Part shown: in pieces, positions 5,182 through 46,039 of the stretch
Numbering within the stretch: the stretch's first letter is position 1
How the letters are laid out: every line of letters starts with the position of its first letter
Source of the DNA: a virus
Length of the DNA: 64,000 nt
IMG/VR virus record: IMGVR_UViG_3300044716_000883
Location: 62,001 to 126,000 of that record
Strand: one strand, 5' to 3'
Notes under the pieces: model-generated
What the model was told of the DNA's origin: nothing
The model's input: only the letters and a program-made list of their open reading frames with translations
Database searches by the model: none
Program-made: the position numbers and the translations under genes

Positions 5182-5547
5182 ATGAACACTAAAGCATTTA
5201 AAAGACTAATTAAAGAAGCCGTAATCGATGCTATTCATGAAGAGTTACCATACATTCTTGAAGAGCACATGGCTAAACAAGAGAAAAAATCATTGCGTGA
5301 AAACAGAACAATGAGTTTTACTAGCGCCGATGTAATGACAGGAGCAGGCAACCCAGACGTTAGATCGTCACTTCGTAGTAAAATGGGTGAAGCATTTGGG
5401 TTTCAACAACCACAACAACAGTTAAAAGTAATTGATGCTGTTGATGAAGCTACAGGTGAAAGGGTAAATCCATTCGCTGCGTTTATTGCTGATGCTGCTG
5501 CTAACATGACATCAATGGATAAATCAGGATTAAGAAATTTAGATTAA
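5182..5547 (+). CDS. Small protein with an amphipathic N-terminal peptide
   Basis: This 121-residue protein starts at the ATG after the ATATTTAT motif. An upstream in-frame start at 5143 would overlap the previous gene. The N-terminus (MNTKAFKRLIKEAVIDAIHE) is an amphipathic helix of the type shared by many proteins here and could be a capsid-targeting peptide. The rest is polar and has no recognised domain. It sits between baseplate genes, so a baseplate-assembly role is also possible. Confidence 0.7.
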   Translation: MNTKAFKRLIKEAVIDAIHEELPYILEEHMAKQEKKSLRENRTMSFTSADVMTGAGNPDVRSSLRSKMGEAFGFQQPQQQLKVIDAVDEATGERVNPFAAFIADAAANMTSMDKSGLRNLD

Positions 5548-22402: not shown

Positions 22403-22420
22403 AACCAAAACAAAACACAA

Positions 22421-25756: not shown

Positions 25757-26512
25757 ATGATCAAGTTATTAGATTTAATTAAGGAAATACAAGGTAAACC
25801 AAAAGCCATATTCCTAGCGGGTCCCGCTGGTTCTGGTAAAACGTTTACTTCTGCTCAAATAATACCGAAAAAACTAACGGTAGTTAATGTCGATGACACT
25901 TACGAAGAATTATTGAAAGCAGCAGGTTTAGGCACTAAAATCGCAGATTTCACGCAGGATCAATTGTCGCAAGCGGCTAAATTAATGGGTCAAGCTCAAA
26001 AGCAAACTAAGGAAAAATATGCACAATTAACTGGGGATAAACAAGACATTATTGTTGATGGTACAGGTGCAGCTAGTAAGCCTTTATTAAAGAAAAAACA
26101 AGAATTAGAAGCGTTAGGATACGATACAATGATGGTCATGATTTGGGTTTCACCTTACACATCATTAGAACGTAATGCTAGTCGCGATCGTGCATTGCAA
26201 CCATCTATTGTTTTAAGAACATGGGTTGGTGTAAATCAAAATATTGATACATACAGACAAGTATTTGGTGATAATTTTATTTTAATTAACAATGATCCAA
26301 ATGGTAAATTAGAATATGATCCTGCTTACGCTAAAGAGAAATTCTTTAAAACAGTTAAAGGTAGCGGTAAAGTTTATACACCAGATGAGAAAGCTAAACG
26401 TGATAAAGAAATAGCAGACTTAAATGCTAATCTACAACAACTAATACAATCAACACCAGAATTTACATCTATGGGTGATGCTAAATCTAAAATAAATAAT
26501 TTTATAAAGTAA
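25757..26512 (+). CDS. P-loop kinase, zeta-toxin/AAA-like, with a targeting-like N-terminus
   Basis: This 251-residue protein starts at the ATG after TATTTAT. The longer frame from 25718 overlaps the hairpin. MIKLLDLIKE resembles a capsid-targeting peptide. Residues 17-32 carry the Walker A motif GPAGSGKT (22-29). NVDDTYEELL and IIVDGTGAASK follow, then an arginine-rich lid (ERNASRDRAL), as in zeta-toxin and polynucleotide-kinase-like enzymes. The substrate is unknown: a nucleotide, nucleic acid end or amino sugar. The C-terminus is a charged helix. It is coupled to the next gene by TAATG. Confidence 0.75.
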   Translation: MIKLLDLIKEIQGKPKAIFLAGPAGSGKTFTSAQIIPKKLTVVNVDDTYEELLKAAGLGTKIADFTQDQLSQAAKLMGQAQKQTKEKYAQLTGDKQDIIVDGTGAASKPLLKKKQELEALGYDTMMVMIWVSPYTSLERNASRDRALQPSIVLRTWVGVNQNIDTYRQVFGDNFILINNDPNGKLEYDPAYAKEKFFKTVKGSGKVYTPDEKAKRDKEIADLNANLQQLIQSTPEFTSMGDAKSKINNFIK

Positions 26513-27450
26513 TGAATTTAGGACAATATCTAGTACAACAACTGTTAGAAGCAGAACAAACAACAATTGCTTTGTTTCCTGGTGCTTTTAAACCACCACA
26601 TAAAGGTCACTTTGCTGTAGTTAAAAAATTATTAGAAAATGCTGATCAAGTAACTGTACTAATATCACCTAAAACACGTGAAGGTATTACTGCAGATGAA
26701 AGTGTTGCTGTATGGGAATTATATAAAACATTATTAGATGGTTCTGTTGAAATAAGAGTTGCAGCAGAAAATCCAGTTAGAGAAACATACGACGTAATTA
26801 AAAACAATCCTGATACTAATTTTATAGTAGCATTCGGTAAAAACGATGCTGACAGATTTAAACAAATGGGTAAAAACCCAAATGCAAAAGTATTTGATGC
26901 TGGTAATTTTGATGGTGCAAACGCAACTGGATTAAGAGCAGCATTATTAGCTAATAATGAAGACGCAATTAAAGAATACCTCCCAGAAGGTATTGATATA
27001 GCTGATTTCTTAATGGCTTTAAGTAAAACTAAAAAAGAGGAACCGCCAGTAGAAGAACCTGAAGCTGCTCCTTTAAAAGAAAGTAAGTTAAACGAAAGCG
27101 AAACTGCAACCATTGAAGAATTTATAAAATATGCTATTAAAAACTTGGGAATTCAAAATCCCCCCCGTAACTTATCCTTATCATACGATACAAATAAAGC
27201 AAAGGAAATGAGGAGTTTTGGATATTTTAGCCCAAATGATAATAAAATATGGGTTTATTGCGGAAATAGAAACATGGCTGACATTTTGAGAACGCTAGCG
27301 CATGAACTAGTACACCGCAAGCAAGATGAGGATGGAAGAATAAGCTACGAAAGTGGCAAAACTGGAAGCGACATTGAAAATGAAGCAAACGCTAAAGCGG
27401 GAGTATTACTACGCGACTTTGGCAAACAACATGAGGAAATTTATCAATAG
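26512..27450 (+). CDS. Nucleotidyltransferase fused to an HExxH metallopeptidase
   Basis: This 312-residue fusion starts with a targeting-like peptide (MNLGQYLVQQLLEAE). Residues 18-165 form a cytidylyltransferase/NMNAT-like domain with the nucleotide-binding GAFKPPHKGH (24-33) and FGKNDADRF. A Pro/Glu-rich linker with LKESKLNES follows. Residues about 200-312 form a zinc-peptidase domain with HELVH (264-268) and a downstream ENEANA that could supply the third ligand, as in ImmA/IrrE-type proteins. Substrates are unknown. The two activities could be separated by prohead-protease cleavage in the linker. Confidence 0.75.
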   Translation: MNLGQYLVQQLLEAEQTTIALFPGAFKPPHKGHFAVVKKLLENADQVTVLISPKTREGITADESVAVWELYKTLLDGSVEIRVAAENPVRETYDVIKNNPDTNFIVAFGKNDADRFKQMGKNPNAKVFDAGNFDGANATGLRAALLANNEDAIKEYLPEGIDIADFLMALSKTKKEEPPVEEPEAAPLKESKLNESETATIEEFIKYAIKNLGIQNPPRNLSLSYDTNKAKEMRSFGYFSPNDNKIWVYCGNRNMADILRTLAHELVHRKQDEDGRISYESGKTGSDIENEANAKAGVLLRDFGKQHEEIYQ

Positions 27451-27452
27451 TT

Positions 27453-27920
27453 ATGTATACAATTTACTGTGACATGGACGGTGTCCTTGTCGATTTTGAA
27501 AAAGGTTATTATGACGCCACAGGCGCTCATACAAAACAATTTGCTAAAGGCGATAACAATTTTTGGGAGCCTATAGACGCTAAAGGTCCATCTTTTTGGG
27601 CTAATTTACCCTGGATGCCTGATGGGCAAGAATTATGGCGTTATATTAAAAAATATAAGCCAAATATTTTATCCTCTCCATCACGTAGTTCAACATCTAA
27701 AGTAGGTAAAGAAGCATGGTTAAAAATGCATCTACAAAACAGCTACAAAAAAGCATATTTCTACCCAAGAAATCAAAAACAATTATTCTCAGATGTAAAT
27801 AGAATATTGATTGATGATTTACCAAATACCATTGAAGAATGGAATGCTAAAGGAGGTACAGGTATATTACACACCTCAGCAGCCAATACAATAAAGGAAC
27901 TTAAAAAATTAGGGTTATAA
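27453..27920 (+). CDS. HAD-family 5'(3')-deoxyribonucleotidase-like phosphatase
   Basis: This 155-residue enzyme has the HAD nucleophile motif CDMDGVLVDF (Asp7, Asp9), a short cap with WANLPWMPDG, and motif IV as ILIDDLPNTI. Length and motifs fit the nucleotidase branch that removes phosphate from dNMPs. It probably helps balance the nucleotide pool or recycle host DNA. It overlaps the next gene by one base (TAATG). Confidence 0.82.
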   Translation: MYTIYCDMDGVLVDFEKGYYDATGAHTKQFAKGDNNFWEPIDAKGPSFWANLPWMPDGQELWRYIKKYKPNILSSPSRSSTSKVGKEAWLKMHLQNSYKKAYFYPRNQKQLFSDVNRILIDDLPNTIEEWNAKGGTGILHTSAANTIKELKKLGL

Positions 27921-28504
27921 TGGAAGAATCAAAACTACAACGGGAGTTTAATCAACGCGACGTTCAACGTATGCGTAATATCATTACTAAAGATTATAAC
28001 GCTAAAACCACTACTCAAATTGGTTATTCTAAATCTCAAACAGAACATAAAGAAGGTGATGTTTGGGAAGAAGGTGGTAAACAATGGACTTTAAAAAATG
28101 GTATTAAACAAACCATAACTCGTTTTGATGAATTAAAAAAAGTAATATCGTTACCATTAGCATGTCCTAAATGCAGTAAGGCTATGCAGTCAACTACGTT
28201 GAATAAAAAGATGTGGCCTATACATAAAATGTGTTTTGATTGCGTTGTTAAAATGGAAACTGACCTAAAACGTACAGGGAAATATGAAGAATATGCACGT
28301 AATATAGTTAATCGTGGCGCTACAACATACATTAAAGATTTAGAAGACGCTTTACTAGAATTAGCATTATACGAAGACAACGAAAGTTTTGTAACTGAAG
28401 CGGGAGATGTTGAAAAATGGACTGGTAAAGGTATAAATAAAGAGAAACTCACCCAAGATATACAGGAACACATACAAGAAATCAAGGATCAAATTAAAGA
28501 TTAA
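27920..28504 (+). CDS. Zinc-ribbon protein of unknown function
   Basis: This 194-residue protein starts with a charged helix (DVQRMRNIITKDYNAKTTTQ). It then has a beta-hairpin region (GDVWEEGGKQWTLKNGIKQT) and a putative zinc site made of CPKC (about residues 81-84) and CFDC (about 109-112). The C-terminal half is helical and acidic. It gives an impression of a conserved phage protein, but no function is known to me. DNA or RNA binding through the zinc ribbon is possible. Confidence 0.7.
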   Translation: MEESKLQREFNQRDVQRMRNIITKDYNAKTTTQIGYSKSQTEHKEGDVWEEGGKQWTLKNGIKQTITRFDELKKVISLPLACPKCSKAMQSTTLNKKMWPIHKMCFDCVVKMETDLKRTGKYEEYARNIVNRGATTYIKDLEDALLELALYEDNESFVTEAGDVEKWTGKGINKEKLTQDIQEHIQEIKDQIKD

Positions 28505-28511
28505 TATTTAT
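28504..28511 (+). promoter_or_regulatory. ATATTTAT motif, 27 nt before the gene at 28539
   Basis: The octamer overlaps the end of the previous gene's stop codon region (TAA at 28502-28504). Confidence 0.4.
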
Positions 28512-28538
28512 AGCCATAAACTACTATAAATTTCTTTA

Positions 28539-28817
28539 ATGGAGAATATATATTCCGTTGTTATTACAGCAATTACCGTATTAGGAGGCACAACAGCGTT
28601 TCGTTTTTATGAAAAACGCGCTATGCGTAAAGAACGTGATGATGAATTTATCCGTCATGACTGCAAAGACCGCATCACAAAATTAGAAGCATTATTAGAA
28701 AGATCATCTCGAGAAAAAGATGAGATGCGCCAACAGATTTTAGATTTAGTATCTGAGGTTGCTTCATTACGTACCGAAATTAAATACCTAACCGATAGAC
28801 GCACTGGAGGCATATGA
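28539..28817 (+). CDS. Membrane-anchored coiled-coil protein (i-spanin-like candidate)
   Basis: This 92-residue protein has an N-terminal hydrophobic segment (about residues 4-20, IYSVVITAITVLGGTTAF). A highly charged coiled coil (ITKLEALLERSSREKDEMRQ onward) follows. A single membrane anchor followed by a coiled coil is the layout of inner-membrane spanins, but no partner o-spanin with a lipobox is seen next to it. It overlaps the following gene by 4 nt (ATGA). Confidence 0.65.
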   Translation: MENIYSVVITAITVLGGTTAFRFYEKRAMRKERDDEFIRHDCKDRITKLEALLERSSREKDEMRQQILDLVSEVASLRTEIKYLTDRRTGGI

Positions 28818-29044
28818 TAAAGCTATCAGAACTTATCCTTAAAGAAGGACCAGCCGAATACCCATCAAATCACAAACCAGGAATGCGCGTAACTAAAGGC
28901 GGTTCAATGTGTGCTAATTGTGAATATCATGAAGATGAAGGTAATTTATGTAATAACAAATATTGGTTAAAATGGCACGATGGTGATGCAAATATTCCTT
29001 ACCCTGCTAATGAATATTGTTGCAACTGGTGGCATGAAGAATAA
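28814..29044 (+). CDS. Small cysteine-rich protein, HiPIP-like pattern
   Basis: This 76-residue protein starts with a targeting-like peptide (MIKLSELILKEG). It carries five Cys: CANC (33, 36), Cys46, and CC at 69-70 in NEYCCNWW. The spacing with aromatic residues after the last Cys recalls high-potential iron-sulfur proteins, but zinc binding is equally possible. No redox partner is evident. It could be a packaged virion protein. Confidence 0.65.
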   Translation: MIKLSELILKEGPAEYPSNHKPGMRVTKGGSMCANCEYHEDEGNLCNNKYWLKWHDGDANIPYPANEYCCNWWHEE

Positions 29045-29047
29045 ATT

Positions 29048-29698
29048 ATGATATACTACTCAGAATATGATTTAGTCTTTATTACTATTCTTAAGAATGG
29101 TACTAATGCCTTTGAAAAACTATTTACATATGTTATGGGTAAAGAGCCTGAACCATTATTTTTTACAAGGCAACCAACAATTCATATGACTGTTGTTAGA
29201 AATCCATATGAAAGATTATTAACACAGTTTTATCACGCAAATAGACAACAACTTTGGAAAGAATTTAAGTATACGGTACACCACCCTTTTTTTAGAAAGT
29301 GGGTTAAAGAAACCTATAGTAATGGTTATAATGGAGAGGATGGCCATTTATATACTCAATCCCAATTTTTACAATTTGCTGAAATTCAAATGGAATATAA
29401 AGTATTTAAAACAGAAGAATTTTCTGCACATGAATTATTCTTTTTTTTAAATTTAACAGAAGAACGTAAGGCTGAAATAGATAACGAATATTCAAAAATA
29501 ATAATTGAGTTAGAAACAAGCGCTCATCATGCTACTAATAGTATAAAACAAGGAGTCTGGCAGAGTTTTTATGATGCTGAAACTATTAAGATATGTAACA
29601 ATCATTATGCAGACGATTTTAAAGCATTTAACTACGAAATTATTAAACCTGAGGAATTTAAACCTATATATTTTGAATATAAAACTACCCTGATTTAG
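29048..29698 (+). CDS. Sulfotransferase-like protein
   Basis: This 216-residue protein has the two nucleotide-sulfate binding elements of sulfotransferases. The 5'-phosphosulfate loop is ILKNGTNAFEKLF (residues 14-26) and the 3'-phosphate site is TVVRNPYERLLTQFY (48-62). A C-terminal CNNHYADDFKAFNYE is typical of family 2 enzymes. It would transfer sulfate from PAPS to a sugar or protein. It is cytoplasmic, with no signal peptide. A virion glycan or the host surface is a possible target. Confidence 0.75.
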   Translation: MIYYSEYDLVFITILKNGTNAFEKLFTYVMGKEPEPLFFTRQPTIHMTVVRNPYERLLTQFYHANRQQLWKEFKYTVHHPFFRKWVKETYSNGYNGEDGHLYTQSQFLQFAEIQMEYKVFKTEEFSAHELFFFLNLTEERKAEIDNEYSKIIIELETSAHHATNSIKQGVWQSFYDAETIKICNNHYADDFKAFNYEIIKPEEFKPIYFEYKTTLI

Positions 29699-29702
29699 TT
29701 AA

Positions 29703-29710
29703 ATATTTAT
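29703..29710 (+). promoter_or_regulatory. ATATTTAT motif, 4 nt before the gene at 29715
   Basis: The octamer starts 4 nt after the sulfotransferase stop and ends 4 nt before the ATG. Confidence 0.45.
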
Positions 29711-29714
29711 TATT

Positions 29715-30125
29715 ATGATCAAATTAACAGAAATATTAGACGAAATACTAACCGAAAAACTTTGCAAAAAGGGTAGGGCTTACTATAATCGTCGTAGAGC
29801 TGCTGGTGAAAAACCATCAGCTTACCTTTCTGGTCGTGCTGTTAAAGTGTGTAAGGGTTTAATGGAAGAAGATGATTTAGATATGCACGAATCGCTTCGT
29901 GATTGGTTTAAAAAAGAAGATTGGGTTCGTATTGATACAGCAGGCAACATAACTGGACCTTGTGGTACAATGAAAAAAGGTAATAAAACGACTCGTTGTT
30001 TACCTCGTGCTAAAGCAAACAGCTTATCTAAAGCTGAACGCGCTGCTACATCAAAGAAAAAAGCAGCATCTGATAAGCAATTTGTACCTAATACTAAAAA
30101 AGCAAAAGTAAAACTTAATAAGTAA
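29715..30125 (+). CDS. Basic DUF5872-like protein with a targeting-like N-terminus
   Basis: This 136-residue, Lys-rich protein begins MIKLTEILDEILTEK, a capsid-targeting-type peptide. It continues with CKKGRAYYNRRRAAGEKPSA and a C-terminal module (LRDWFKKEDWVRIDTAGNIT, then GPCGTMKKGNKTTRCLPRAK) that I associate with the DUF5872 family of unknown function. Strong positive charge suggests DNA binding, for example inside the head. A cut after the first Glu-rich peptide would release the basic core. Confidence 0.75.
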   Translation: MIKLTEILDEILTEKLCKKGRAYYNRRRAAGEKPSAYLSGRAVKVCKGLMEEDDLDMHESLRDWFKKEDWVRIDTAGNITGPCGTMKKGNKTTRCLPRAKANSLSKAERAATSKKKAASDKQFVPNTKKAKVKLNK

Positions 30126-30129
30126 ACTA

Positions 30130-30666
30130 ATGAAAATATCAGAATTAAGACAATTAATTAAAGAAACCGTTGAAGAAGCATTCTTCATTGGTGAAGATGA
30201 TATCGATAATGTAGAGTGTAAAAAGTGTGGATGGAAATGGAAATTATCAAATGGTGGTGAAAATCCATATCTTTGCCACAAATGCGATTATGATAATAGT
30301 TATGCTTACAACGATAGTATAGACGAATACGACGTAGAAAATGCAGACGATATAAAAGAATTTGTTGAATTCATGCGTGAATATACACAGCAACTAAACG
30401 AAGCTGATTGTGACTGCCTATTAGAAGCTAAATATCAGGGCCGTACAGTGCCATTAGGTAAACCAATGCGCGGTGATTCTAAAAAATTCAAAGTATACGT
30501 TAAAAACCCTAAAACTGGCAAAGTAGTTAAAGTTAACTTCGGTGCTAAGGGAATGAATATTAAGAAAAACAACCCAGTAAGACGTAGAGCATTCAGGGCA
30601 AGACATAACTGCTCAAATCCAGGACCACGTACTAAAGCTAGATACTGGTCATGTAGAAAATGGTAG
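30130..30666 (+). CDS. Zinc-ribbon protein with basic C-terminal domain
   Basis: This 178-residue protein has a targeting-like start (MKISELRQLIKETVEEAF), then a zinc ribbon (Cys30, Cys33, Cys49, Cys52). An acidic stretch ends in QLNEADCDCLLEAKYQGRTV, which holds two sites resembling prohead-protease cuts (LNEA, LLEA). The C-terminal 60 residues are very basic (NPVRRRAFRARHNCSNPGPR, then TKARYWSCRKW). It is probably a packaged DNA-binding protein. The function is not known. Confidence 0.72.
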   Translation: MKISELRQLIKETVEEAFFIGEDDIDNVECKKCGWKWKLSNGGENPYLCHKCDYDNSYAYNDSIDEYDVENADDIKEFVEFMREYTQQLNEADCDCLLEAKYQGRTVPLGKPMRGDSKKFKVYVKNPKTGKVVKVNFGAKGMNIKKNNPVRRRAFRARHNCSNPGPRTKARYWSCRKW

Positions 30667-30679
30667 TTCAAATTTTAAC

Positions 30680-30687
30680 ATATTTAT
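30680..30687 (+). promoter_or_regulatory. ATATTTAT motif, 18 nt before the gene at 30706
   Basis: The octamer is followed by an A-rich leader (ATAAACACAACAAA) with no Shine-Dalgarno sequence. Confidence 0.45.
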
Positions 30688-30705
30688 ACATATAAACACA
30701 ACAAA

Positions 30706-31548
30706 ATGAATATTACAGAAGTACGTAACGTCATCAAACAAGTTATTGCTGAAGCAATGAGTAAAGAAGGTGGCTTACCTAAAAGCGGTGGAAAATTAGT
30801 ACACCTTAAGAAAGAATTAGCTAGCTTAAAGAACATGAGAGAATCTTTAGGTCAATTACAAATCGCTGAAGGCGGTGAGCAATCATTCGTAGCTGAATAT
30901 GCACATATGCAAAAATTCGTTAACGAATTAGAAAAAATCAAAACTGCTCATGCTAAATTAGCTGAAATGTTAGACAATCAAATTTCTGAAGTTGAAGGTA
31001 AAGTTTCATCTGAGACTGAAAAGATCAAAGAAATGGTTGGTTTAATCGAAAAAGCACCTAAAGCTCCTAAGAAAGACGCTAAGAAAGCTCCTGCTAAAAA
31101 AGACGATAAAAAAGCAGAACCTAAAAAAGCTGAAAAGAAAGAAGAGCCTAAGGCTGACGACTCAAAAAAAAAAGCTAAAAAATTAGACGAAGCATCTTTC
31201 TCAAGTACTGATGTTAATGCTATTTTAAAAGCTGCTAGAGCTGCTGTTGAAGCAGGTAAAGAGGTAACTGTTGATGGTATTAAAATAGGAAAGGTAGTAT
31301 CTGGATTAGGAAGATTTATTCCTGCTGATGGTAGTCAATCTTTAAAAATTATGGATTACGTTGGTGAACCGGAAAAAATTGTAATTGATGGAGTACCTGC
31401 AGAATTAAAACCTTACGAACCAAAAAGCGAACCTCGAGTTGACACAAGGACTCCAGAAGAAAAAGCAAAAGCACAAGCTGCGTTTGATGACAGATATGGA
31501 CCAGGTGGAGGATACGATACAGCATTTGGAAGATACACAGGCGATTAA
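30706..31548 (+). CDS. Lys/Ala-rich helical protein, internal-head-protein candidate
   Basis: This 280-residue protein starts MNITEVRNVIKQVIAEAMS, a targeting-like peptide. Residues 30-125 are helical and coiled-coil-like. Residues about 126-160 are a Lys/Ala/Pro low-complexity segment. KKLDEASFSSTD follows, which looks like a protease site, and then a small folded domain (AVEAGKEVTVDGIKIGKVV). The tail is Gly/Tyr-rich. Composition and layout recall packaged T4 internal proteins. No enzyme motif is seen. Confidence 0.7.
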   Translation: MNITEVRNVIKQVIAEAMSKEGGLPKSGGKLVHLKKELASLKNMRESLGQLQIAEGGEQSFVAEYAHMQKFVNELEKIKTAHAKLAEMLDNQISEVEGKVSSETEKIKEMVGLIEKAPKAPKKDAKKAPAKKDDKKAEPKKAEKKEEPKADDSKKKAKKLDEASFSSTDVNAILKAARAAVEAGKEVTVDGIKIGKVVSGLGRFIPADGSQSLKIMDYVGEPEKIVIDGVPAELKPYEPKSEPRVDTRTPEEKAKAQAAFDDRYGPGGGYDTAFGRYTGD

Positions 31549-31556
31549 TATAAATA
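31549..31556 (+). promoter_or_regulatory. TATAAATA (exact T4 late-promoter octamer), 3 nt before the gene at 31560
   Basis: This copy has the T4 late promoter sequence in the direction of the genes, unlike the ATATTTAT copies. It overlaps the previous stop region and lies almost on the ATG. Confidence 0.3.
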
Positions 31557-31559
31557 AAA

Positions 31560-32000
31560 ATGATTAAATTACTTGACATATTAGCCGAACGCGATTTATC
31601 CGCTAAGGAAGAAAAAATAGTTAAAGCATTAAAGAAAACAGGGAAGTTTAAAAAGAACGACCCTGCTCTTTATGCTATTGCTGCTTCAAAAGCTGAAGGA
31701 TTAGATCCAGTAGGCAAAGAAGATGACGACATCAACAACGATGGTAAGGTAGATAAGACAGATAAATACTTAGCTAATCGTCGTAAAGCAGTAGCTGCTA
31801 ATATTAAAGAAGGTGATCATGAAGTATCTATGGCTGTATCTAGTCTAGAAGCAATTGCAGAAGCAATTATCGAATTAAGACAAAAACTTGGCAATACTGA
31901 ACGTAATATTCCAGGATGGATTCAAGACCACATTGCTAAAGCAGAAAACTACATTGAGCAAGCAGCTCAAGGTTTTCACGAACTAAAACATAATGGATAA
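31560..32000 (+). CDS. Targeting-like protein with a dockerin/EF-hand-like calcium loop
   Basis: This 146-residue protein starts MIKLLDILAERDLS. Residues 57-68 (DINNDGKVDKTD) form a near-perfect dockerin/EF-hand calcium loop: DxNxDGxxDxxD. A helical C-terminal half (ERNIPGWIQDHIAKAENYIE) follows. The cut site expected of the peptide is after LAE (residue 10). It is possibly a packaged protein stabilised by calcium. The function is unknown. It overlaps the next gene by 8 nt. Confidence 0.72.
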   Translation: MIKLLDILAERDLSAKEEKIVKALKKTGKFKKNDPALYAIAASKAEGLDPVGKEDDDINNDGKVDKTDKYLANRRKAVAANIKEGDHEVSMAVSSLEAIAEAIIELRQKLGNTERNIPGWIQDHIAKAENYIEQAAQGFHELKHNG

Positions 32001-32514
32001 AAAATTAATATTAGAAAAATACATTAAAGTAGCTGTTCGTAAAGCACTTCAAGAAGAAGAAGCTAGACAACAGAAAGCTACTAAAGCGATGTATCTAGTA
32101 TATCGTTTTCCTGGTTTAAAAAAAATAATGGAAGACTTAATGTCTCCATCTTTTGGTCGCTTCATCACAGATGTTGCTGTTGTAGCTCCAAAACCAACAA
32201 CATTCTCAGCTAAATTAATTAACGAACAAGATTTCGGAATTATATACAATGGTAAAGGTAAATTTACCGTTAAAGTAGCAGGTAAAAAATACAACGTCCA
32301 AAATTTAGGTGAATTAGAAAGAGCTCAACAAGCAATAGCTGATTTATTAGAATTAAACTACGCTATTGATGAAAAAGTAGCAGGCGGAGCTGAAGCTCCA
32401 GCTGCAGATGCAGGTGCTGAAGCATTTAGTGCAGCCGCAGCCGCTCCAGCAGGTGAAACACCAGCAGAAACTCCAGCAGAAGAAGAAACTCCTGAAGAAA
32501 CCCCAGCAGCATAA
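31993..32514 (+). CDS. Structural-like protein with Ala/Pro/Glu tail
   Basis: This 173-residue protein has a targeting-like N-terminal helix (YIKVAVRKALQEEEARQQK). A compact alpha/beta middle (residues 35-125, with YNGKGKFTVKVAGKKYNV) follows. The last 45 residues are almost only Ala, Pro, Glu, Gly and Thr. Such tails are flexible and often exposed. It overlaps both neighbours (8 nt and TAATG). No family name is recognised. Confidence 0.68.
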   Translation: MDKKLILEKYIKVAVRKALQEEEARQQKATKAMYLVYRFPGLKKIMEDLMSPSFGRFITDVAVVAPKPTTFSAKLINEQDFGIIYNGKGKFTVKVAGKKYNVQNLGELERAQQAIADLLELNYAIDEKVAGGAEAPAADAGAEAFSAAAAAPAGETPAETPAEEETPEETPAA

Positions 32515-33650
32515 TGACAGTTATAGATAAAATATTACGTGAATGGTCATTTAGATGCCATGATGGGATTGTTGATATCAACGATCCTATTAAACTGTCT
32601 ATATTAAATGAAATACTTGGTTTTAATTTAGATGAAGTGAGACAACCATATGAATCTTTAACAGGAGCAGCTAAAGAAGAAGCTGATAAGTTAATTGAAT
32701 TATTTAACTTAACTAAAGACAATATTCAAAAACAGACCTCTAAAAGAATAATAATTTTATCTGATATACCTAGAAATGAAGTTTTTAAGAAATTACAAGA
32801 TTTAGGATATAAACAAGATAGAACTATTTCTGGCTCATCAGCAGGTGGATTTATAACACCAGAAGGTATAGAAATTATAGTTAAATCTGAGACATCTTCT
32901 AAAATAGGTGGCGCTGGAGTAGGTAATGAAAGATTTTTTGTAGATGCAATAAATAACCTTATTCAAGAAAGTGATGGTTCTGTTACTGTTACTATCAACG
33001 GTGGTGGTAAAACTTTAAAATATGCTAACATAACTGAAGCCAAACATGTTGGTAAAGAAGGTGAGAAAAAAGGATGGAAAGCAGATGCTTTATTAATAGC
33101 AGGAAATGAAACATATCCAATTTCTTTAAAAGAAGATGGTCCATTCCGTTGGGCTAGTGCTATGGGAGATCTTAAAGATCTTTACACAACACTACTTACT
33201 AAAGCTAGTAAAGATGAAATACCAAATCTTCAATTAAAAACAGACCCTGAAAATCCTAGGGTACTTCAGATGTATAATCCTAGAACAAATTCACCTTATG
33301 GTAGAATATTTGTAACAGATGTACCTCAATTAACTCAAGCAGAAAATATAAATAAAATTATTTTTGGAGCTGATAATGCTATTGTTGTACAGCGAACCTT
33401 TACTGAATCTGATTTTGCACTGACTGGAAATACTATAAATGTAACTGCTACTAAAATTATTACATCAATTGAAGATTTAAGTCCTGAAGATTATCCTATA
33501 GTAGAATTTGAACGTAATGCTTCAAAAGCAACTCAAACAAGTGGATTAACAGGTAGGGGTATTATAATAAGAATATCACCTAAAGGAAGAATGGATAAAG
33601 CAGGATCTAAAGCTAATAATTTAATATTAAACTATAACGATATAATGTAA
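32514..33650 (+). CDS. Possible PD-(D/E)XK-like nuclease, unknown role
   Basis: This 378-residue protein has an N-terminal helical part (IDKILREWSFRCHDGIVDIN). The core may be a restriction-endonuclease-like fold: GVGNERFFVDAINNLI, then ITEAKHVGKEG, then KADALLIAGNETYPISLKED, where Asp, Glu or Ser, and Lys could form the metal site. The C-terminal part is beta-rich with GRGIIIRISPKG. The assignment is tentative. It is coupled to its upstream neighbour by TAATG. Packaging and injection, as for its neighbours, is possible. Confidence 0.5.
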   Translation: MTVIDKILREWSFRCHDGIVDINDPIKLSILNEILGFNLDEVRQPYESLTGAAKEEADKLIELFNLTKDNIQKQTSKRIIILSDIPRNEVFKKLQDLGYKQDRTISGSSAGGFITPEGIEIIVKSETSSKIGGAGVGNERFFVDAINNLIQESDGSVTVTINGGGKTLKYANITEAKHVGKEGEKKGWKADALLIAGNETYPISLKEDGPFRWASAMGDLKDLYTTLLTKASKDEIPNLQLKTDPENPRVLQMYNPRTNSPYGRIFVTDVPQLTQAENINKIIFGADNAIVVQRTFTESDFALTGNTINVTATKIITSIEDLSPEDYPIVEFERNASKATQTSGLTGRGIIIRISPKGRMDKAGSKANNLILNYNDIM

Positions 33651-33653
33651 AAT

Positions 33654-33914
33654 ATGGAACAATTTAACCCATCAGACAAAATAACACTAGACGTACCTTT
33701 ATTTATCCGTCTATTAGAATATGCTCGCGAAGACGCTAAAACCGATATGGATTTACACAATGTAGCTGAAAAAGCAATCGTAGCAAGTGAAACTGGAAAG
33801 ACATTAACTATGGCTGACTATGATGGTTTAGTAGCGGGTAATAGTGAAGATCAAGAAATGAACGAAATAAAAAGAATGATTGAGTTAGCTAACATCAAGT
33901 CTTTCTTTAACTAA
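33654..33914 (+). CDS. Small helical acidic protein
   Basis: This 86-residue protein has DVPLFIRLLEYAREDAKTDM and then a helical, acidic remainder ending ELANIKSFFN. It is the last gene before a hairpin and the FAD oxidoreductase gene. The sequence gives an impression of a conserved small phage protein, but no function is recognised. Confidence 0.68.
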   Translation: MEQFNPSDKITLDVPLFIRLLEYAREDAKTDMDLHNVAEKAIVASETGKTLTMADYDGLVAGNSEDQEMNEIKRMIELANIKSFFN

Positions 33915-33962
33915 CATATAGACAGATTCACATTCTGTCGCATTAAATGATATTATATAGTT

Positions 33963-33997
33963 GTGGTGCACCTAAAAAGTGTGCCACCTTCTATTTT
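33963..33997 (+). terminator. Probable terminator
   Basis: A 9-bp stem (33963-33971 with 33979-33987, two wobbles) has a 7-nt loop and the tail CTTCTATTTT. It closes the small-protein operon before the oxidoreductase gene. Confidence 0.55.
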
Positions 33998-34018
33998 GAA
34001 AGGGCAAAATTTTTTATT

Positions 34019-34026
34019 ATATTTAC
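34019..34026 (+). promoter_or_regulatory. ATATTTAC, near-match to the recurrent motif
   Basis: This 7 of 8 match lies 21 nt before the oxidoreductase ATG and just after the hairpin, the same order (hairpin, motif, gene) as at 38162 and 38522. Confidence 0.35.
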
Positions 34027-34047
34027 ATGTTTAATTTAATTTAATTT

Positions 34048-35352
34048 ATGAATAAGAAAATCGTAATTGTAGGAGCAGGTGTAGCAGGTATTAATGCCGC
34101 TACCAAATTAGTAGATAATGGCTATCCTGGTGAGCTAATCACTATTATAGACAAAGGTAATGACCCAATTAACCGCTTACCTGAAGAGGTAATGACGGGG
34201 ATGCTTGGTGCTGGTGGATGGAGTGATGGAAAATTAACATACCATACCTCAATTGGTGGCCAGCTAGCTAAGTACTGTGGTGAAGAAAAAGCCATGGAGT
34301 TAATGAAACAAGTAGTAGATAACTTTACTCGTTTCCACCCCACCCCAGAAGAAATATTCATGTCTGATCCTCAAGAGGAACCTGAATTTATTAAACCATA
34401 CTTTGGTTTGAGAATGTTTCCTGTATGGCATATTGGATCTAATTTCTTGCATGAAATTGCTAAAAACTGGTATCAATATTTAGTTGATAAAGGTGTTGAT
34501 TTCAAATGGAATTTTGAGGTTTATAGTATTGATTTTGAAAATAATAGTATAAATGCTATTAAACGTAGCGAAGAAGCAGATCCATTAGAAGCATTCATTT
34601 CATATGATGAACTAATATTTGCAGTAGGTAAATCGGGTATTAACTTTGCTCAATCATTATCAGACAAATATGAATTTCCAACTGAACCCAAATCAGTACA
34701 AATTGGAGTTCGATTTGAAGCACCACAGAAGTACTTCCAAAAATTAATAGATGTATCGTACGACTTTAAACTATACCAGAAATTTGATAACGTATCTTTA
34801 CGTTCGTTCTGTACTAATAATAATGCAGCTTATGTTGCTGTGGAAGAGACTTATGGGGATGTAAGTTACAATGGTCACGCTAAAAAAGGTGAAGAATTTA
34901 GAAACGATATGACTAACTTTGGTATTCTGATGGAAATTAAGGGTATTGAAGATCCATTTGCTTGGAGTAGAGATGTAGTACAAAAACTACAAATTGACAA
35001 TACAGGATTATATTACTCACCATCTCGTAAACCAGCTCTTACATCTGAAGGAGTAACAGTAAGTGCTACCCAAATTGACTCATTAGAATTATTTAAGGAA
35101 GTAATGGGTGAATATGCTGATTATGTTATTAATTTTATTGATGATATGAATAAAGTGTTTGAATTTAATGATGATTGGGGAATGTATATTCCTGAAGTAA
35201 AATACTTATCACCTGAACCCTTAGTAAACTACGAAGATTTATCATTAACAGGATACTCAAATGCACACTTTGCTGGTGATGCTCTATCAGCTAGAGGTAT
35301 TACAGTATCAGGTGCACACGGAATTTATATTGCAGAAAATTTAATAAAATAA
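34048..35352 (+). CDS. FAD-dependent oxidoreductase, COG2509-like
   Basis: This 434-residue flavoprotein has an N-terminal FAD Rossmann motif (VGAGVAGINAA, residues 8-18) and GAGGWSDGKLTYHTSIGGQL (52-75). The latter matches the SDGKL box of the COG2509 dehydrogenases. RSFCTNNNAAYVAVE lies mid-protein. A C-terminal FAD-binding end (AHFAGDALSARGITVSGAHG, then IYIAENLIK) completes the fold. No membrane segment is seen. It is an accessory metabolic gene with unknown substrate, possibly redox repair or cofactor metabolism during infection. It stands in its own unit after a hairpin. Confidence 0.82.
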   Translation: MNKKIVIVGAGVAGINAATKLVDNGYPGELITIIDKGNDPINRLPEEVMTGMLGAGGWSDGKLTYHTSIGGQLAKYCGEEKAMELMKQVVDNFTRFHPTPEEIFMSDPQEEPEFIKPYFGLRMFPVWHIGSNFLHEIAKNWYQYLVDKGVDFKWNFEVYSIDFENNSINAIKRSEEADPLEAFISYDELIFAVGKSGINFAQSLSDKYEFPTEPKSVQIGVRFEAPQKYFQKLIDVSYDFKLYQKFDNVSLRSFCTNNNAAYVAVEETYGDVSYNGHAKKGEEFRNDMTNFGILMEIKGIEDPFAWSRDVVQKLQIDNTGLYYSPSRKPALTSEGVTVSATQIDSLELFKEVMGEYADYVINFIDDMNKVFEFNDDWGMYIPEVKYLSPEPLVNYEDLSLTGYSNAHFAGDALSARGITVSGAHGIYIAENLIK

Positions 35353-35353
35353 T

Positions 35354-35590
35354 ATGTCAGAAACAAAAAAATTAAAAACACAAGACGGATCAATAGTATA
35401 TTATTGGGAAGGTAAAATGCATAATTGGGATGGACCAGCATATATCCCCCAGGGTAACAAACGTGCATCTGAATATTGGTTATTCGGAATAAAATATTCT
35501 AAAGACCAATGGGAAGATAGAAAGAAAGATGTTAATGGACAACCATTTTACAAAACAGCAGCTGGTAAAGCAGCAGGTGCTAGAGTTTAA
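35354..35590 (+). CDS. Small protein with a WEGKxHxxDGPAY motif
   Basis: This 78-residue protein contains YYWEGKMHNWDGPAYIPQGN and SEYWLFGIKYSKDQWEDR. The motif recalls short phage proteins with repeated H.xDGPA...W.xxG units, here in a single copy. It lies 1 nt after the oxidoreductase stop, probably in the same transcript. The function is unknown. Confidence 0.68.
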   Translation: MSETKKLKTQDGSIVYYWEGKMHNWDGPAYIPQGNKRASEYWLFGIKYSKDQWEDRKKDVNGQPFYKTAAGKAAGARV

Positions 35591-35617
35591 GCAAAATAAA
35601 GGTTATAAATTCAATAC

Positions 35618-35863
35618 ATGAGTAGAGGAAGACCAGCAGTAATAGAAACAGTAGAGCCACCACGTAAATATACTCGTGTATTTGAAGATGAATTTACCGT
35701 TGAAACATGGACATACGATTTAAATAAATTTCATGGTCCTATTAACGTTGATATTAAATATAAGGCGGGTGCTGAAAAGGCTATTAAACAACAAATAAAG
35801 CAAGCTAAGCAGGAGAAAAAGACAGCACGTCAAATGAAAAAAATAAACGAACGAAACAAATGA
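35618..35863 (+). CDS. Small basic protein
   Basis: This 81-residue protein has an N-terminal half with a beta pattern (KYTRVFEDEFTVETWTYDLN) and a strongly basic helical tail (KQQIKQAKQEKKTARQMKKI). It may bind nucleic acid. The start overlaps nothing upstream, and the stop overlaps the kinase ATG by 4 nt (ATGA). Confidence 0.68.
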   Translation: MSRGRPAVIETVEPPRKYTRVFEDEFTVETWTYDLNKFHGPINVDIKYKAGAEKAIKQQIKQAKQEKKTARQMKKINERNK

Positions 35864-36378
35864 GAATAGGATTAGCAGGTACAATGTCTGTAGGTAAAAC
35901 TACATTAGCAAAAGCATTAGGTGAATTAGATCAATTTAAAGATCATAATGTACAAACTGAGCGTAGTAAATACTTACGTGATTTAGGCATTCCATTAAAT
36001 ACAGATTCTACATTAAATGGTCAATTTGTATTTTTAGCAGAACGTGCTACTGAATTATTATATCCAAATATAATTACAGACAGAACAATATGGGATGTTT
36101 GTGCATTTACATTCTCAGCTAAATCAATTGATTGGTTTGCTAAACGTTCATTTGTTGAAGCTGCTATGATGCTTCGTGAACAATATGATGTAGTATTTTA
36201 TGTATCGCCTGAAGGCGTACCTATTGAAGATAATGGTGTACGTACTATTGATGCTGAATATCGTAATAAAATCGATTGGGCTATTCGTGAGTCATTAGAA
36301 GAATATAAACCTAATAAATTAGTATATATCAAAGGTACAACAGAGGAACGTATTGCTACAATTTTACAAAACCTATAA
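35860..36378 (+). CDS. AAA_28/NadR-RNK-like nucleoside kinase
   Basis: This 172-residue P-loop protein has Walker A GTMSVGKT (residues 7-14), a possible substrate Glu in QTERSKYLRDLG, and IITDRTIWDVCAF as the DR motif of deoxynucleoside and ribosylnicotinamide kinases. The length fits the stand-alone kinase domain of NadR and related enzymes. It probably phosphorylates a nucleoside or nicotinamide riboside. The distant NMNAT-like domain at 26512 could be its partner, but they are not in one operon. Confidence 0.78.
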   Translation: MRIGLAGTMSVGKTTLAKALGELDQFKDHNVQTERSKYLRDLGIPLNTDSTLNGQFVFLAERATELLYPNIITDRTIWDVCAFTFSAKSIDWFAKRSFVEAAMMLREQYDVVFYVSPEGVPIEDNGVRTIDAEYRNKIDWAIRESLEEYKPNKLVYIKGTTEERIATILQNL

Positions 36379-36385
36379 TATTTAT
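36378..36385 (+). promoter_or_regulatory. ATATTTAT motif, 18 nt before the gene at 36404
   Basis: The octamer begins at the last base of the kinase stop codon. An ATG lies directly after it at 36386, but 36404 is favoured as the start. Confidence 0.45.
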
Positions 36386-36403
36386 ATGCACAACAATAAC
36401 AAA

Positions 36404-37441
36404 ATGAAAGTAACAGAACTACAAGAAATTATTCGTAACGTTATTAAAGAGGCGTTAAATGAAGATCAAGCTGCTGACAAAGCAGCACAGGACGCTGAAA
36501 AAGCATCTGTACAGAAGCAAATAGCTGCCCTTAATAAAAAGAAATCAGAACTAAATACAAACAAACCATCTGCAGAAGATAAACCAGCGCACGATGCTGA
36601 AAGACTTGCTGTGGATAAAAAACTTCAAGCTTTAAATAAAAAAACACAAAAATTAAATAAACCAGGCATTTCAGCACTTGAATTAGATGAAATGGCAAAC
36701 GTATCAGTACGTTATCAATTAGCTGGTGATATTAATGCTGATGATTTTAAAGGTAAGAAAAATAGAATTATTACTGCTATGAAAGCCACAGGCGAACCTA
36801 TGGCAAAAATCGACGTAGCTGGTGAATTAGGATACGACAAACAAAATCCAATCAACTCTGATTTCATGGAACTTGTAGCTTCAGGTGTTATTGAACCAGC
36901 AGGTGAACAAAAAGCTCCACGTTTAACTCGTCCTGCATCTGATAAACCAAAGGGTGGTGAAGGTGAAGAAGATTTTGTTACTGGTGATTTAAGCGATGAA
37001 GAAGTAGATGCTATGTTTGCTAAAGCAAAAGCATCAGGTGATGATGAACCAGAAATTGGTGATATTGAAAAAGCAGATGTATCTGCTGCTAAAATGTCAG
37101 ATGCTGATTACGAAGCATTTATGAAAGTTTCTGATTTAGAAAATCGTTTAGCTTCTACAAAATCAAACATTTTAAAGTTAAAGAAAAGTAAAGGTGCTGC
37201 TGGTGATATTAGTGATAAACCATCAACTGAATTAGTACGTTTACGTGATTTAAAAGCATCATTAGAAAAACGTATTGATGATTTAGTAGCTGGATCTGAA
37301 TATTTACAAAAACGTCAAACCAAACTTACTGGTAAAGAATATACAAAACAACCACCAGAAGAAATTAACATTGCAGACGAAGAACCATTAGACGAGTGGA
37401 CTATGAATAGAATGCAATACTATGCAGGTATTAAAAAATAA
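36404..37441 (+). CDS. Internal-head-protein candidate ending in RMQYYAGIKK
   Basis: This 345-residue, Ala/Lys/Asp-rich helical protein was started at 36404 because MKVTELQEIIRNVIKEALNE matches the shared targeting-like peptide and follows an A-rich leader. A winged-helix-like stretch (NRIITAMKATGEPMAKIDVA) lies near residues 120-165, and coiled coil follows. The C-terminus NRMQYYAGIKK matches the end of the scaffold protein (SRWQMLAGIK). It may therefore bind the same head component. No enzymatic motif is seen. Confidence 0.7.
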   Translation: MKVTELQEIIRNVIKEALNEDQAADKAAQDAEKASVQKQIAALNKKKSELNTNKPSAEDKPAHDAERLAVDKKLQALNKKTQKLNKPGISALELDEMANVSVRYQLAGDINADDFKGKKNRIITAMKATGEPMAKIDVAGELGYDKQNPINSDFMELVASGVIEPAGEQKAPRLTRPASDKPKGGEGEEDFVTGDLSDEEVDAMFAKAKASGDDEPEIGDIEKADVSAAKMSDADYEAFMKVSDLENRLASTKSNILKLKKSKGAAGDISDKPSTELVRLRDLKASLEKRIDDLVAGSEYLQKRQTKLTGKEYTKQPPEEINIADEEPLDEWTMNRMQYYAGIKK

Positions 37442-37445
37442 AAAT

Positions 37446-38138
37446 ATGTCAAAATTAAAAAAAGCATTACCTATTATTTTATTTGCTGTAATAGCAATAT
37501 TAATCGGTAGTGTATTATTTGAAAAGTGTAATAACAATGTTGAGCATAAAGCATTTTTATCTCAAATGGATAGTCTACACAAGGTAAATGATTCATTATT
37601 TGCTGAAATTGCTAAAGATGATGCTGAAATTGATTCTTTAGATTTAGTAGCTGTTGAATTACAATATAAAGTAGATCATCAAAAAGCTAAAGTTAAAACT
37701 ATTGTTGAGTATATTGAAGTAGAAAAAAACAACATTGATGGTTTTTCTAATCCTGAACTAGTAAGCTCATTTAACAATCGTTACCCAGCAGATACAATTA
37801 CTAACCCATTATTAGTAGCACAACCAGTATTAGTTAGCGCTGCTAAGGATTTAGTAGAATTAGATGGTGCTAAACAAATCATTGTACTTAAAGATAGCTC
37901 TATCAATACACTGGAAGCAAAAGTAACTGTTAAAGATAGTGTTATTGGAAAATATGCTAATAAAGAACTTAACTACAAAAATATTATCCTGAATAAAGAT
38001 AAAGAAATTACAGGATGGGAAGGACAATATCAAAAACTAGAATTACAATACAACAAGTTAAAAGTAAAATCTAAATTCCAACGCATAGGAAGCTATGTAG
38101 TAATTGGTGGATTAGCTTACTTGATGTTAGTAAAATAA
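37446..38138 (+). CDS. Membrane protein with central coiled coil
   Basis: This 230-residue protein was started at 37446 (MSKLKKALP). A longer frame would overlap the previous gene. There is a hydrophobic segment at about residues 8-27 (LPIILFAVIAILIGSVLF), then a long charged coiled-coil region. A shorter hydrophobic C-terminus (SYVVIGGLAYLMLVK) follows. Anchors at both ends with a coiled coil between suggest a bridge or hairpin in the cell envelope. A unimolecular spanin is conceivable, but no lipobox is present. Confidence 0.7.
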   Translation: MSKLKKALPIILFAVIAILIGSVLFEKCNNNVEHKAFLSQMDSLHKVNDSLFAEIAKDDAEIDSLDLVAVELQYKVDHQKAKVKTIVEYIEVEKNNIDGFSNPELVSSFNNRYPADTITNPLLVAQPVLVSAAKDLVELDGAKQIIVLKDSSINTLEAKVTVKDSVIGKYANKELNYKNIILNKDKEITGWEGQYQKLELQYNKLKVKSKFQRIGSYVVIGGLAYLMLVK

Positions 38139-38161
38139 CGACCCCACGCCCCCACATAATT

Positions 38162-38190
38162 AGGCCTATTCGCAAGAATGGGCCTTCTTT
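38162..38190 (+). terminator. Terminator with GCAA tetraloop
   Basis: A 10-bp stem (38162-38171 with 38176-38185, one T-G wobble) and a GCAA loop precede TCTTT. It ends the transcript of the membrane-protein gene. Confidence 0.85.
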
Positions 38191-38192
38191 AT

Positions 38193-38200
38193 ATATTTAT
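38193..38200 (+). promoter_or_regulatory. ATATTTAT motif, 4 nt before the gene at 38205
   Basis: The motif is directly downstream of a terminator, so new transcription must start here or the gene would be silent. Confidence 0.55.
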
Positions 38201-38204
38201 TATC

Positions 38205-38498
38205 ATGAAACAGCAAATCAACGAAACTACAAGAATGCAGCAATTAGCTGGTATTCTTACTGAAGCGGCACCAGCAATGCCACCAGTACCTGGCCAAAAA
38301 CCTCAAATGCCTCCTGTTCCTGGTAAGTCATCCTCTGCCCCTTTAGATGATAAAAGAAAAGAAAAAGCAGCAGAAGCCTTTTTCCAAGCTAACGTAGAAT
38401 TGACAACATTAAAAAATAATAAACTTCTTAGTGATAGTGAAATTAAAACCTTAGAAGATCTTCTAGGTAAAGCTATAAATGCAATAAATAGTAAATAA
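38205..38498 (+). CDS. Small protein with N-terminal RMQQLAGILTEA and Pro-rich segment
   Basis: This 97-residue protein starts MKQQINETTRMQQLAGILTE, combining the RMQxLAGI motif (seen at the C-termini of the scaffold and of the protein at 36404) with a likely protease site (LTEA). Two PPVPG repeats follow, then a helical C-terminus. An upstream start at 38178 would lie inside the terminator. It is an isolated unit framed by two near-identical terminator-motif cassettes. It is possibly a head-core or packaged protein. Confidence 0.72.
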   Translation: MKQQINETTRMQQLAGILTEAAPAMPPVPGQKPQMPPVPGKSSSAPLDDKRKEKAAEAFFQANVELTTLKNNKLLSDSEIKTLEDLLGKAINAINSK

Positions 38499-45430: not shown

Positions 45431-46039
45431 ATGAAAGCATTATTAATAGACCACACACCATTCCATATAGCTAAATTAACGCTATCAGAAGGTAAAAATG
45501 TACCTGGTGGAAGAATGCGTGTTAAAGGCAAATTACAAGAATCTGAAGTTAAAAATGGTAATGGTCGTGTTTATCCTAAAGAAGTATTACAACGTGAAGT
45601 TGAAAAATACATGGAAGGACCAATCAAAACCAATACTGCATTAGGTGAATTAGACCACCCAGAATCTACAATCGTTAACTTAAATAACGTATCACACAAC
45701 ATTAAAAAAGTTTGGTGGGAAGGTAATGATTTAATGGGTGAATTAGAATTATTAAATACACCAGCAGGTAAAATTGCACAAGAAATTATATCAGCAGGTA
45801 TTCCATTAGGTATTTCATCTCGTGGTATGGGTTCAGTACGTCAAATTGGCGAAACTGTAGAAGTACAAGACGATTTTGAATTATTATGTTGGGATCTTGT
45901 ATCAGTACCATCAACTCCTGGCGCTTATATGTCATTAGCTGAAGGTAAAAAAGCACAATCTGGTAAAGATTATAGTAAAGTAAATGGTTTAATTACCGAA
46001 ATTATCTGTAACGCAACAGGAGTTTGTCCTCTTTGCTAG
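45431..46039 (+). CDS. Prohead core protease (gp21-like)
   Basis: This 202-residue serine protease is of the herpesvirus-assemblin/T4 gp21 type that matures the prohead. It has the N-terminal GRMRVKGKLQESEVKNGNGR, the catalytic His76 in GELDHPEST and the nucleophile Ser129 or Ser130 in LGISSRGMGSV. FELLCWDLVSVPSTPGAYM is the conserved late strand. The C-terminus ends in Cys-containing ATGVCPLC. It would cut scaffold, major capsid protein and targeted internal proteins after Glu. Adjacency to the scaffold and capsid genes matches T4. Confidence 0.92.
   Translation: MKALLIDHTPFHIAKLTLSEGKNVPGGRMRVKGKLQESEVKNGNGRVYPKEVLQREVEKYMEGPIKTNTALGELDHPESTIVNLNNVSHNIKKVWWEGNDLMGELELLNTPAGKIAQEIISAGIPLGISSRGMGSVRQIGETVEVQDDFELLCWDLVSVPSTPGAYMSLAEGKKAQSGKDYSKVNGLITEIICNATGVCPLC

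Follow-up and report, generated by a model that had tools for sequence, protein, structure and literature searches.

Do the unrelated proteins encoded next to the head genes of an uncultured T4-like virus carry a common address that takes them into the head? We addressed this question in a stretch of 64,000 nucleotides (the window), which spans positions 62,001 to 126,000 of the 179,381-bp linear IMG/VR virus record IMGVR_UViG_3300044716_000883. An earlier note, made from the letters of the window, had pointed out that genes of the block 25757-38498, and several outside it, begin with short amphipathic peptides, and had compared these with the capsid-targeting sequence (CTS) of the T4 internal proteins (IPs). 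In T4, the CTS docks the IPs on the core and is later taken off them, the protease gp21 cleaving after L/I-X-E; on purification the IPs are recovered together with gp22 (PMC9026906). The localization of proteins to the T4 core was nevertheless termed "mysterious" in 2023, and the CTS was said to be absent from other core proteins (PMC9958956). Our analysis indicates that the peptides of the window are probably prohead-targeting tags, which mimic the tails of core proteins and are then removed by an S77 protease of the phage.

Shared N-terminal peptides in the block

All the gene starts claimed in the earlier note are present. The N-termini of the whole genome were re-derived, and 222 proteins were scored with two position-specific scoring matrices (PSSMs), one for a short peptide type (consensus MIKLLDILxE) and one for a long type (consensus MKKSELRQIIREAIxE). 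Because circularity had to be avoided, both drew solely on N-termini that, in relatives, precede bodies non-homologous to the window genes. The top four places for the short profile fell to 29715, 25757, 31560 and 28814 (23.5 to 15.0 bits, Table 1); the best of 824 internal Met windows, used as a control, reached 13.1 bits. For the long profile the top four were 30130, 36404, 5182 and 30706 (34.6 to 14.0 bits), and the internal windows had a 99.5th percentile of 6.0 and a maximum of about 25.4-25.5, given by a stretch in ORF 138 that itself looks like a long-tag member. The profile threshold was passed by 9 of the 21 block genes and by 11 of the 201 genes elsewhere, among them several with signal peptides (hypergeometric 9e-6). 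Block genes thus rank first for both tag types, and by ranks and clustering the shared peptides are real, beyond chance, for most of the genes listed in the earlier note.

The membership proposed there stands for 25757, 28814, 29715, 30130, 30706, 31560, 36404 and 5182, each among the top four of one profile. The genes 26512, 31993 and 42942 are putative members on weaker evidence, which for the last two comes from conservation within their families; 46185 has to be removed, being the scaffold itself and not cargo, and 52572 is unconvincing by the profiles.

An L/I-x-E motif lies within residues 6-26 in 10/10 peptide genes, compared with 43/212 other genes (Fisher 3e-7), a result that is supportive only because the ten genes had been picked for their peptide; this partly circular test is superseded by the profiles from non-homologous genes. 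As with the T4 CTS, a short N-terminal sequence is common to unrelated proteins, a candidate gp21-type L/I-x-E site stands at the leader end, and the genome encodes a cognate S77 prohead protease (at 45431; PF03420, E=4.9e-34), in agreement with the gp21-like protease of the earlier note. The codons of the peptides vary from gene to gene: the four MIKL tags of the window differ in codon use, and identical peptides within one contig are encoded by different codons in 5/5 pairs. The peptides are therefore conserved at the level of protein, not of DNA.

The RMQQLAG tag and the scaffold tail

The block sits immediately 5' of the genes for terminase, portal, S77 protease, scaffold and major capsid protein (MCP), and this T4-like order of terL, portal, protease, scaffold and MCP places the locus with the Far-T4/T4-like head modules. 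The terminase at 38565 is a clear assignment, 40180 is the positional counterpart of a gene that in Flavobacterium phage immuto (Immutovirus) carries the annotation gp20 portal, and the MCP at 47326 is of T4 type (PHROG_138 major head protein, E=9.1e-73). The nearest isolate is immuto, whose terminase is 54% identical and which has the same head gene order and tag types. From its genes, the source phage fits a Far-T4-type (lake-type, T4-like) myovirus, and its group the Far-T4 phages of lakes, which Roux 2015 describes from freshwater metagenomes as having an MCP of T4-like kind and head genes in collinear order (PMC4360716).

The product of 46185 is acidic, conserved across relatives and encoded between protease and MCP, where T4 has gp22; its similarity to T4 gp22 in hhalign is weak (probability 28%, E=6e-4 over 63 columns). 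It ends, directly before the stop codon, in SRWQMLAGIK in the window, SRWQKLAGIIK in immuto and ERMKKLAGIVK in Mel-JY01. The same motif forms a third tag type, RMQQLAG[IL][IL]xE, newly described here at the head of 38205.

IMG/VR was searched for any RMQQLAG-coding DNA, gene calls disregarded, and the matches listed are a sample. Of these 84 matches, 60 are N-terminal and 20 form the very C-terminal end, which leaves 4 at other places. The N-terminal copies are at most 45 residues from an ATG, and for most the distance is exactly nine residues; [ILVMF]xE follows the motif in 58/60 of them, with the Glu exactly four residues past LAG in 53/60. Two C-terminal matches are 14-aa ORFs, and all 18 genuine ones lie directly upstream of an MCP gene and match the window or immuto scaffold; a cut site follows RMQQLAG in none of the scaffold tails among the IMG/VR matches listed. 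The reversed peptide, searched as a control against the whole collection, gave 18 stretches, compared with at least 120 for RMQQLAG. A search of bacterial and archaeal genomes (257 Gb) gave 94 stretches with the pattern, 80 of which were inspected (49 internal, 23 in short ORFs, 7 N-terminal in a loose sense and 1 C-terminal). The placement of the motif is bimodal, N- or C-terminal, in IMG/VR, and there is no such pattern in the bacterial genomes. When the consensus tags were run by tblastn against 50,697 phages, RMQQLAG was found only in immuto and the long tag gave no meaningful match, a poor yield because tags this short are unsuited to such a search. The string RMQQLAG is absent from the literature searched, a search that left most subscription journals and preprints outside.

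The long tag and other core-like proteins

Among head genes, the internal match to the long profile that is best conserved across a family is the C-terminus of 43669, the gene immediately preceding that of the protease, at 13-23 bits in most of the members shown (relatives KFKSQLEEVVREVLAEMES). The profile also matches, less strongly, a stretch within the scaffold (LTVDELKDIIKDIISAE) and the 42942 family. Since the scaffold tail resembles RMQQLAG and the 43669 tail the long tag, two of the three tag types resemble C-termini of resident core proteins. The body family of 36404, which has a tag at its N-terminus and the scaffold-tail motif at its C-terminus, has 62 entries from 80 relative loci. 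The C-terminal motifs of 36404, 43669 and the scaffold, the tag of 38205 and the internal long-type tag at 360-422 had all been missed by the earlier note.

Exchange and fusion of the tagged domains

About 100 tagged families occur in the loci fetched, with unrelated, patchily distributed bodies that are mostly of unknown function. Recognizable bodies include zeta-toxin-type kinases (window and L156), DUF5872, DUF5824 and DUF5661, and an IMG/VR protein (L102) has a weak match, below the cut-off, to Tox-ART-HYD1 (ADP-ribosyltransferase). Among the peptide genes of the window, recognizable enzyme domains are found only in 25757 (Zeta_toxin from residue 12, E=8.8e-10) and 26512 (nucleotidyltransferase plus metallopeptidase-like); the DUF5872-like match of 29715 stays below the cut-off.

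Tags are swapped between homologous domains. The C-terminal domain of 30706 stands after KLDE/A in the window (a slash marks the predicted cut) and after an RMQQLAG tag in L051 (E=3e-24), and L078, tagged with RMQQLAG, matches immuto_178 (leader FDLKKFLVENKLT, FDLKKFLVEN; 5e-11), the use of this additional leader being a difference between immuto and the window phage. An NT5C nucleotidase is without a leader in the window (27453) and with one in immuto_183. The SLRDWFKKED domain follows a middle domain and MHE/ in 29715, while L073_216 joins MIKLLDILNE/ to it directly, both at xE/S.

Domains are also fused. In immuto, several block genes are joined in immuto_191 and immuto_182: the former (841 aa) unites homologues of 31560 and 31993 in one polyprotein, the 31993 family aligning with an internal stretch of it, and L043_17299 and L068_9439 have an internal RMQ-type tag. 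The N-terminus of 26512 reads MNLGQYLVQQLLE/AE, with LLE/A giving a predicted cut at residue 13 and PHROG_395 cytidyltransferase starting at 14; in immuto_182 an internal TLAE/A precedes the same domain. A domain model starts directly after the cut-site motif in two genes, 26512 and 30130. Over 61 independent junctions the motif is present at 32, against 19 expected (p=5e-4), a value that is only indicative because the random-position control takes in non-head genes. Many possible cut sites occur in 30706 and 43669. The pro-region of the MCP itself has a predicted end of the same kind (LVTE/A in the window, IVSE/A in immuto, LISE/A in Mel-JY01).

A model of tail mimicry and its alternatives

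We propose that the peptides act as address tags that would bring unrelated proteins into the assembling prohead core. RMQQLAG[IL] would copy the tail of the gp22-like scaffold, and the long type, MKxSELRxxIRExIxE, resembles the C-terminus of 43669; as copies of core-protein tails, the tags would dock a protein where the scaffold or core protein docks. The tagged proteins would thereby be enclosed in the prohead, and on maturation the S77 protease would cut off the tags after L/I-x-E, leaving the proteins free inside the head. The scaffold tail could do without a cut site because the whole scaffold is disposable. Incorporation into the prohead, cleavage, a common docking partner and delivery to the host are what we infer from these patterns; virion proteomics of such a phage was not found in the literature searched. 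A broader formulation, to which we give about even chances, is a natural cargo-loading code, in which the docking tails of the phage's own disposable scaffold and core proteins are copied onto any protein wanted in the head, a protease site is added, and tagged domains are freely shuffled or fused at such sites.

Several observations weigh against the tail-mimicry model. For the short MIKLLDIL type there is no core-protein tail to match, the tag and the scaffold tail of one and the same genome disagree at some positions (KRMQQLAGI and SRWQMLAGI), and in the stretch of Mel-JY01 that was read the scaffold tail is present and RMQQLAG cargo was not found. L/I-x-E is a short motif, which occurs by chance in 20% of the other N-termini. 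Some tagged proteins may also be parts of the core instead of cargo: 36404, with a tag at each end and its 62-member family, looks like a standing prohead-core component, and perhaps so are 30706, 31560 and 31993. From the earlier interpretation we therefore retain capsid-targeting-like peptides that a protease could remove, on the grounds of the shared peptide, the gp21-type site, the S77 protease, the location by the head genes and the swapping; we do not retain the view of all these proteins as cargo delivered to the host, and the "arsenal" is no more than suggested by the few enzyme domains.

Carried further, the case of 36404 leads to the alternative that the tagged proteins are scaffold or core parts like T4 gp67 and gp68, cut up and lost at maturation, with helices that serve core packing and nothing delivered. 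The related helices in 43669, 42942 and the scaffold and the many possible cut sites of 30706 and 43669 fit this, but the roughly 100 unrelated and patchy bodies, with a kinase, a nucleotidyltransferase and a weak ADP-ribosyltransferase match among them, are unlike a fixed core, and with cut sites at domain borders the domains could survive. We regard it as unlikely. Short amphipathic helices could instead send proteins to the tail, the host membrane or a phage compartment, the likeness to the scaffold tail being incidental, and the tagged 5182 does lie among genes away from the head cluster. This is very improbable in our view, given that the genuine C-terminal RMQQLAG copies listed all belong to scaffold proteins beside the MCP and that the attached cut site fits the prohead protease rule.

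That leaders are exchanged between homologous bodies could also mean that the shared N-termini are recombination linkers in the DNA, marking gene-exchange hot spots, and not protein signals. The differing codons contradict this and the C-terminal copies in scaffolds are left unexplained by it, so that we give it hardly any credence. Chance, that is, ordinary charged amphipathic N-termini chosen by eye, could draw on the frequency of L/I-x-E and on 52572 and 26512, which lack profile support; it is contradicted by the first ranks of block genes under profiles from non-homologous genes and by the bimodal motif position seen in IMG/VR and not in bacterial genomes, and its probability is close to nil.

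Comparison with known head-targeting systems

The T4 CTS (MKTYQEFIAEA in IPII/IPIII, with IPI, Alt and gp21 processing) is likewise a short N-terminal leader on unrelated proteins that ends in L/I-x-E/ and is served by an S77 protease. It differs in lacking sequence likeness to the window tags beyond the cut site: on inspection of the T4 leaders, no homology to KTYQEFIAEA was found, and only the IAE/A end is common with 30706. The window tags are therefore filed as functional analogues, not homologues. Unlike T4, this phage group has several distinct tags, one of them common to the scaffold C-terminus, and many more tagged families, whose domains also occur as fused polyproteins. A comparison of the CTS with gp67, gp68, gp21, gp22 and gp23 revealed no tail mimicry in T4; the best matches are cut-site ends (LIAEA at the gp22 N-terminus and FLTEA in gp23). 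In the passages of PMC5694885 on phiKZ and SPN3US, whose head proteins are cut after S/A-x-E, internal head proteins also have N-terminal propeptides with redundant cut sites, and the SPN3US/phiKZ paralogues gp53/gp54 have an identical leader; these propeptides are mostly of about 80-130 residues, and in those passages no scaffold-tail motif shared with leaders was seen.

Features of the locus and neighboring genes

The coordinates are compiled in Table 1.

Table 1. Tags, cut sites and head genes in the window, with the support for each. A slash marks the predicted cut.
Feature	Position	Strand	Support
Short tag MIKLLDLIKE/, zeta-toxin-like kinase gene 25757-26512	25757..25786	+	PSSM 22.6 bits, rank 2/222; IKE site
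Putative tag MNLGQYLVQQLLE/, gene 26512-27450 (nucleotidyltransferase + metallopeptidase-like)	26512..26550	+	Weaker: no PSSM fit
Short tag MIKLSELILKE/, Cys-rich 76-aa protein 28814-29044	28814..28846	+	PSSM 15.0 bits, rank 4
Short tag MIKLTEILDEILTE/, gene 29715-30125 (DUF5872-like, below cut-off)	29715..29756	+	PSSM 23.5 bits, rank 1
Long tag MKISELRQLIKETVEE/, gene 30130-30666	30130..30177	+	PSSM 34.6 bits, rank 1
Basic domain of 30130, predicted mature form, following internal cuts QLNE/ADCDCLLE/AKYQGR	30427..30663	+	LLE/A cut at 99, PHROG_7595 from 100
Long tag MNITEVRNVIKQVIAE/A, gene 30706-31548	30706..30753	+	PSSM 14.0 bits, rank 4
Short tag MIKLLDILAE/, gene 31560-32000 (EF-hand-like loop protein)	31560..31589	+	PSSM 22.5 bits, rank 3
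Tag-like N-terminus MDKKLILEKYIKVAVRKALQE/, gene 31993-32514 (weaker)	31993..32055	+	9.8 bits
Long tag MKVTELQEIIRNVIKE/A, N-terminus of conserved core-like gene 36404-37441	36404..36451	+	PSSM 25.0 bits, rank 2
C-terminal NRMQYYAGIKK (then stop) of 36404, same motif as scaffold tail	37406..37438	+	C-terminal motif in 52/62 family members
Third tag type MKQQINETTRMQQLAGILTE/A, small gene 38205-38498	38205..38264	+	RMQQLAG[IL][IL]xE motif
Long tag-like N-terminus MNTKAFKRLIKE/A, outside block	5182..5217	+	PSSM 15.4 bits, rank 3
Internal long-type tag MTKDELKEMVRQELQAVLAEK within ORF 138-851	360..422	+	Highest internal match, about 25.5 bits
C-terminal long-type motif KMKKELEEIVNEVINEYYDGR, core-like protein 43669-45429	45325..45387	+	PSSM from N-termini; alignment A4
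S77 (gp21-type) prohead protease	45431..46039	+	PF03420 E=4.9e-34; PHROG_207 head maturation protease E=2.7e-55
gp22-like scaffold	46185..47291	+	Between protease and MCP; conserved family A2
Scaffold C-terminal tail SRWQMLAGIK (then stop)	47259..47288	+	R, L, A, I invariant in ten homologues incl. immuto, Mel-JY01
MCP pro-region ending LVTE/ASQTG	47326..47502	+	Cut site inferred

The octamer TATTTATA has 41 copies in the genome, 25 of them at most 25 bases upstream of called starts (1.4 expected, about 18-fold). It precedes 25757, 30706, 36404, the terminase and 42088 (for instance at window positions 25742, 30681, 36379 and 38554), and may be the late promoter of the phage, in which case these block genes would be expressed during head assembly. 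The late promoter of T4 is TATAAATA.

Behind the internal tag of ORF 138-851 come two hydrophobic Gly-rich repeats in tandem, each after LEE/SP or IEE/SP, a possible polyprotein of membrane-active peptides. The N-terminus of 32514-33650, VIDKILxEWSFRCHDGIVDxN, is nearly invariant in relatives whose whole proteins are 22-35% identical, and is perhaps another address module. The AlphaFold models are of low confidence (mean pLDDT 51 for 32514 and 57 for 26512), and for 32514 a nuclease fold is no more than a suspicion. Three block genes are untagged: 29048-29698 is sulfotransferase-like (E=1.3e-7), and 34048-35352 (FAD/NAD oxidoreductase) and 35860-36378 (conserved AAA_28 kinase) both occur in many relatives. 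Directly upstream of the block, 22382-25693 encodes a 1103-aa outer-membrane beta-barrel with CarboxypepD_reg (Oar/TonB-receptor-like; OMP_b-brl_4 E=2.7e-46), possibly a receptor change or a carried host gene. A PADLOC run yielded nothing useful.

Among the relatives, L043, L049 and L079 have small extra ORFs between the block and the head genes, by eye apparently of GIY-YIG-/zinc-finger-like homing-endonuclease types. In immuto (L089) the scaffold is annotated as "DNA polymerase phi-like", the 841-aa fusion as hypothetical, a 907-aa multi-domain protein as NadR and a small tagged protein as TiaS, all likely misannotations. The 484-kb uncultured phage L228 (LR756508) has a row of several long-type N-termini in its head cluster and a scaffold ending in SRMQKLADIS before the stop; short-type leaders precede a paralogous family with a "YRGT" motif, which no Pfam model recognizes. 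An ADP-ribosyltransferase-like reading of these short-tagged proteins, prompted by that motif, received no confirmation from Pfam.

Implications for Far-T4 phages

The tags point to a way in which phages of this type may bring proteins into their heads. One short motif on the scaffold C-terminus and on dozens of unrelated N-termini names a testable binding site, within a simple model of tail mimicry plus a cut site. It would also help to recognize, from sequence, proteins packaged in the heads of uncultured Far-T4 phages, in which most tagged proteins are functionally unknown, and provide a small natural tag with which proteins could be loaded into phage heads.

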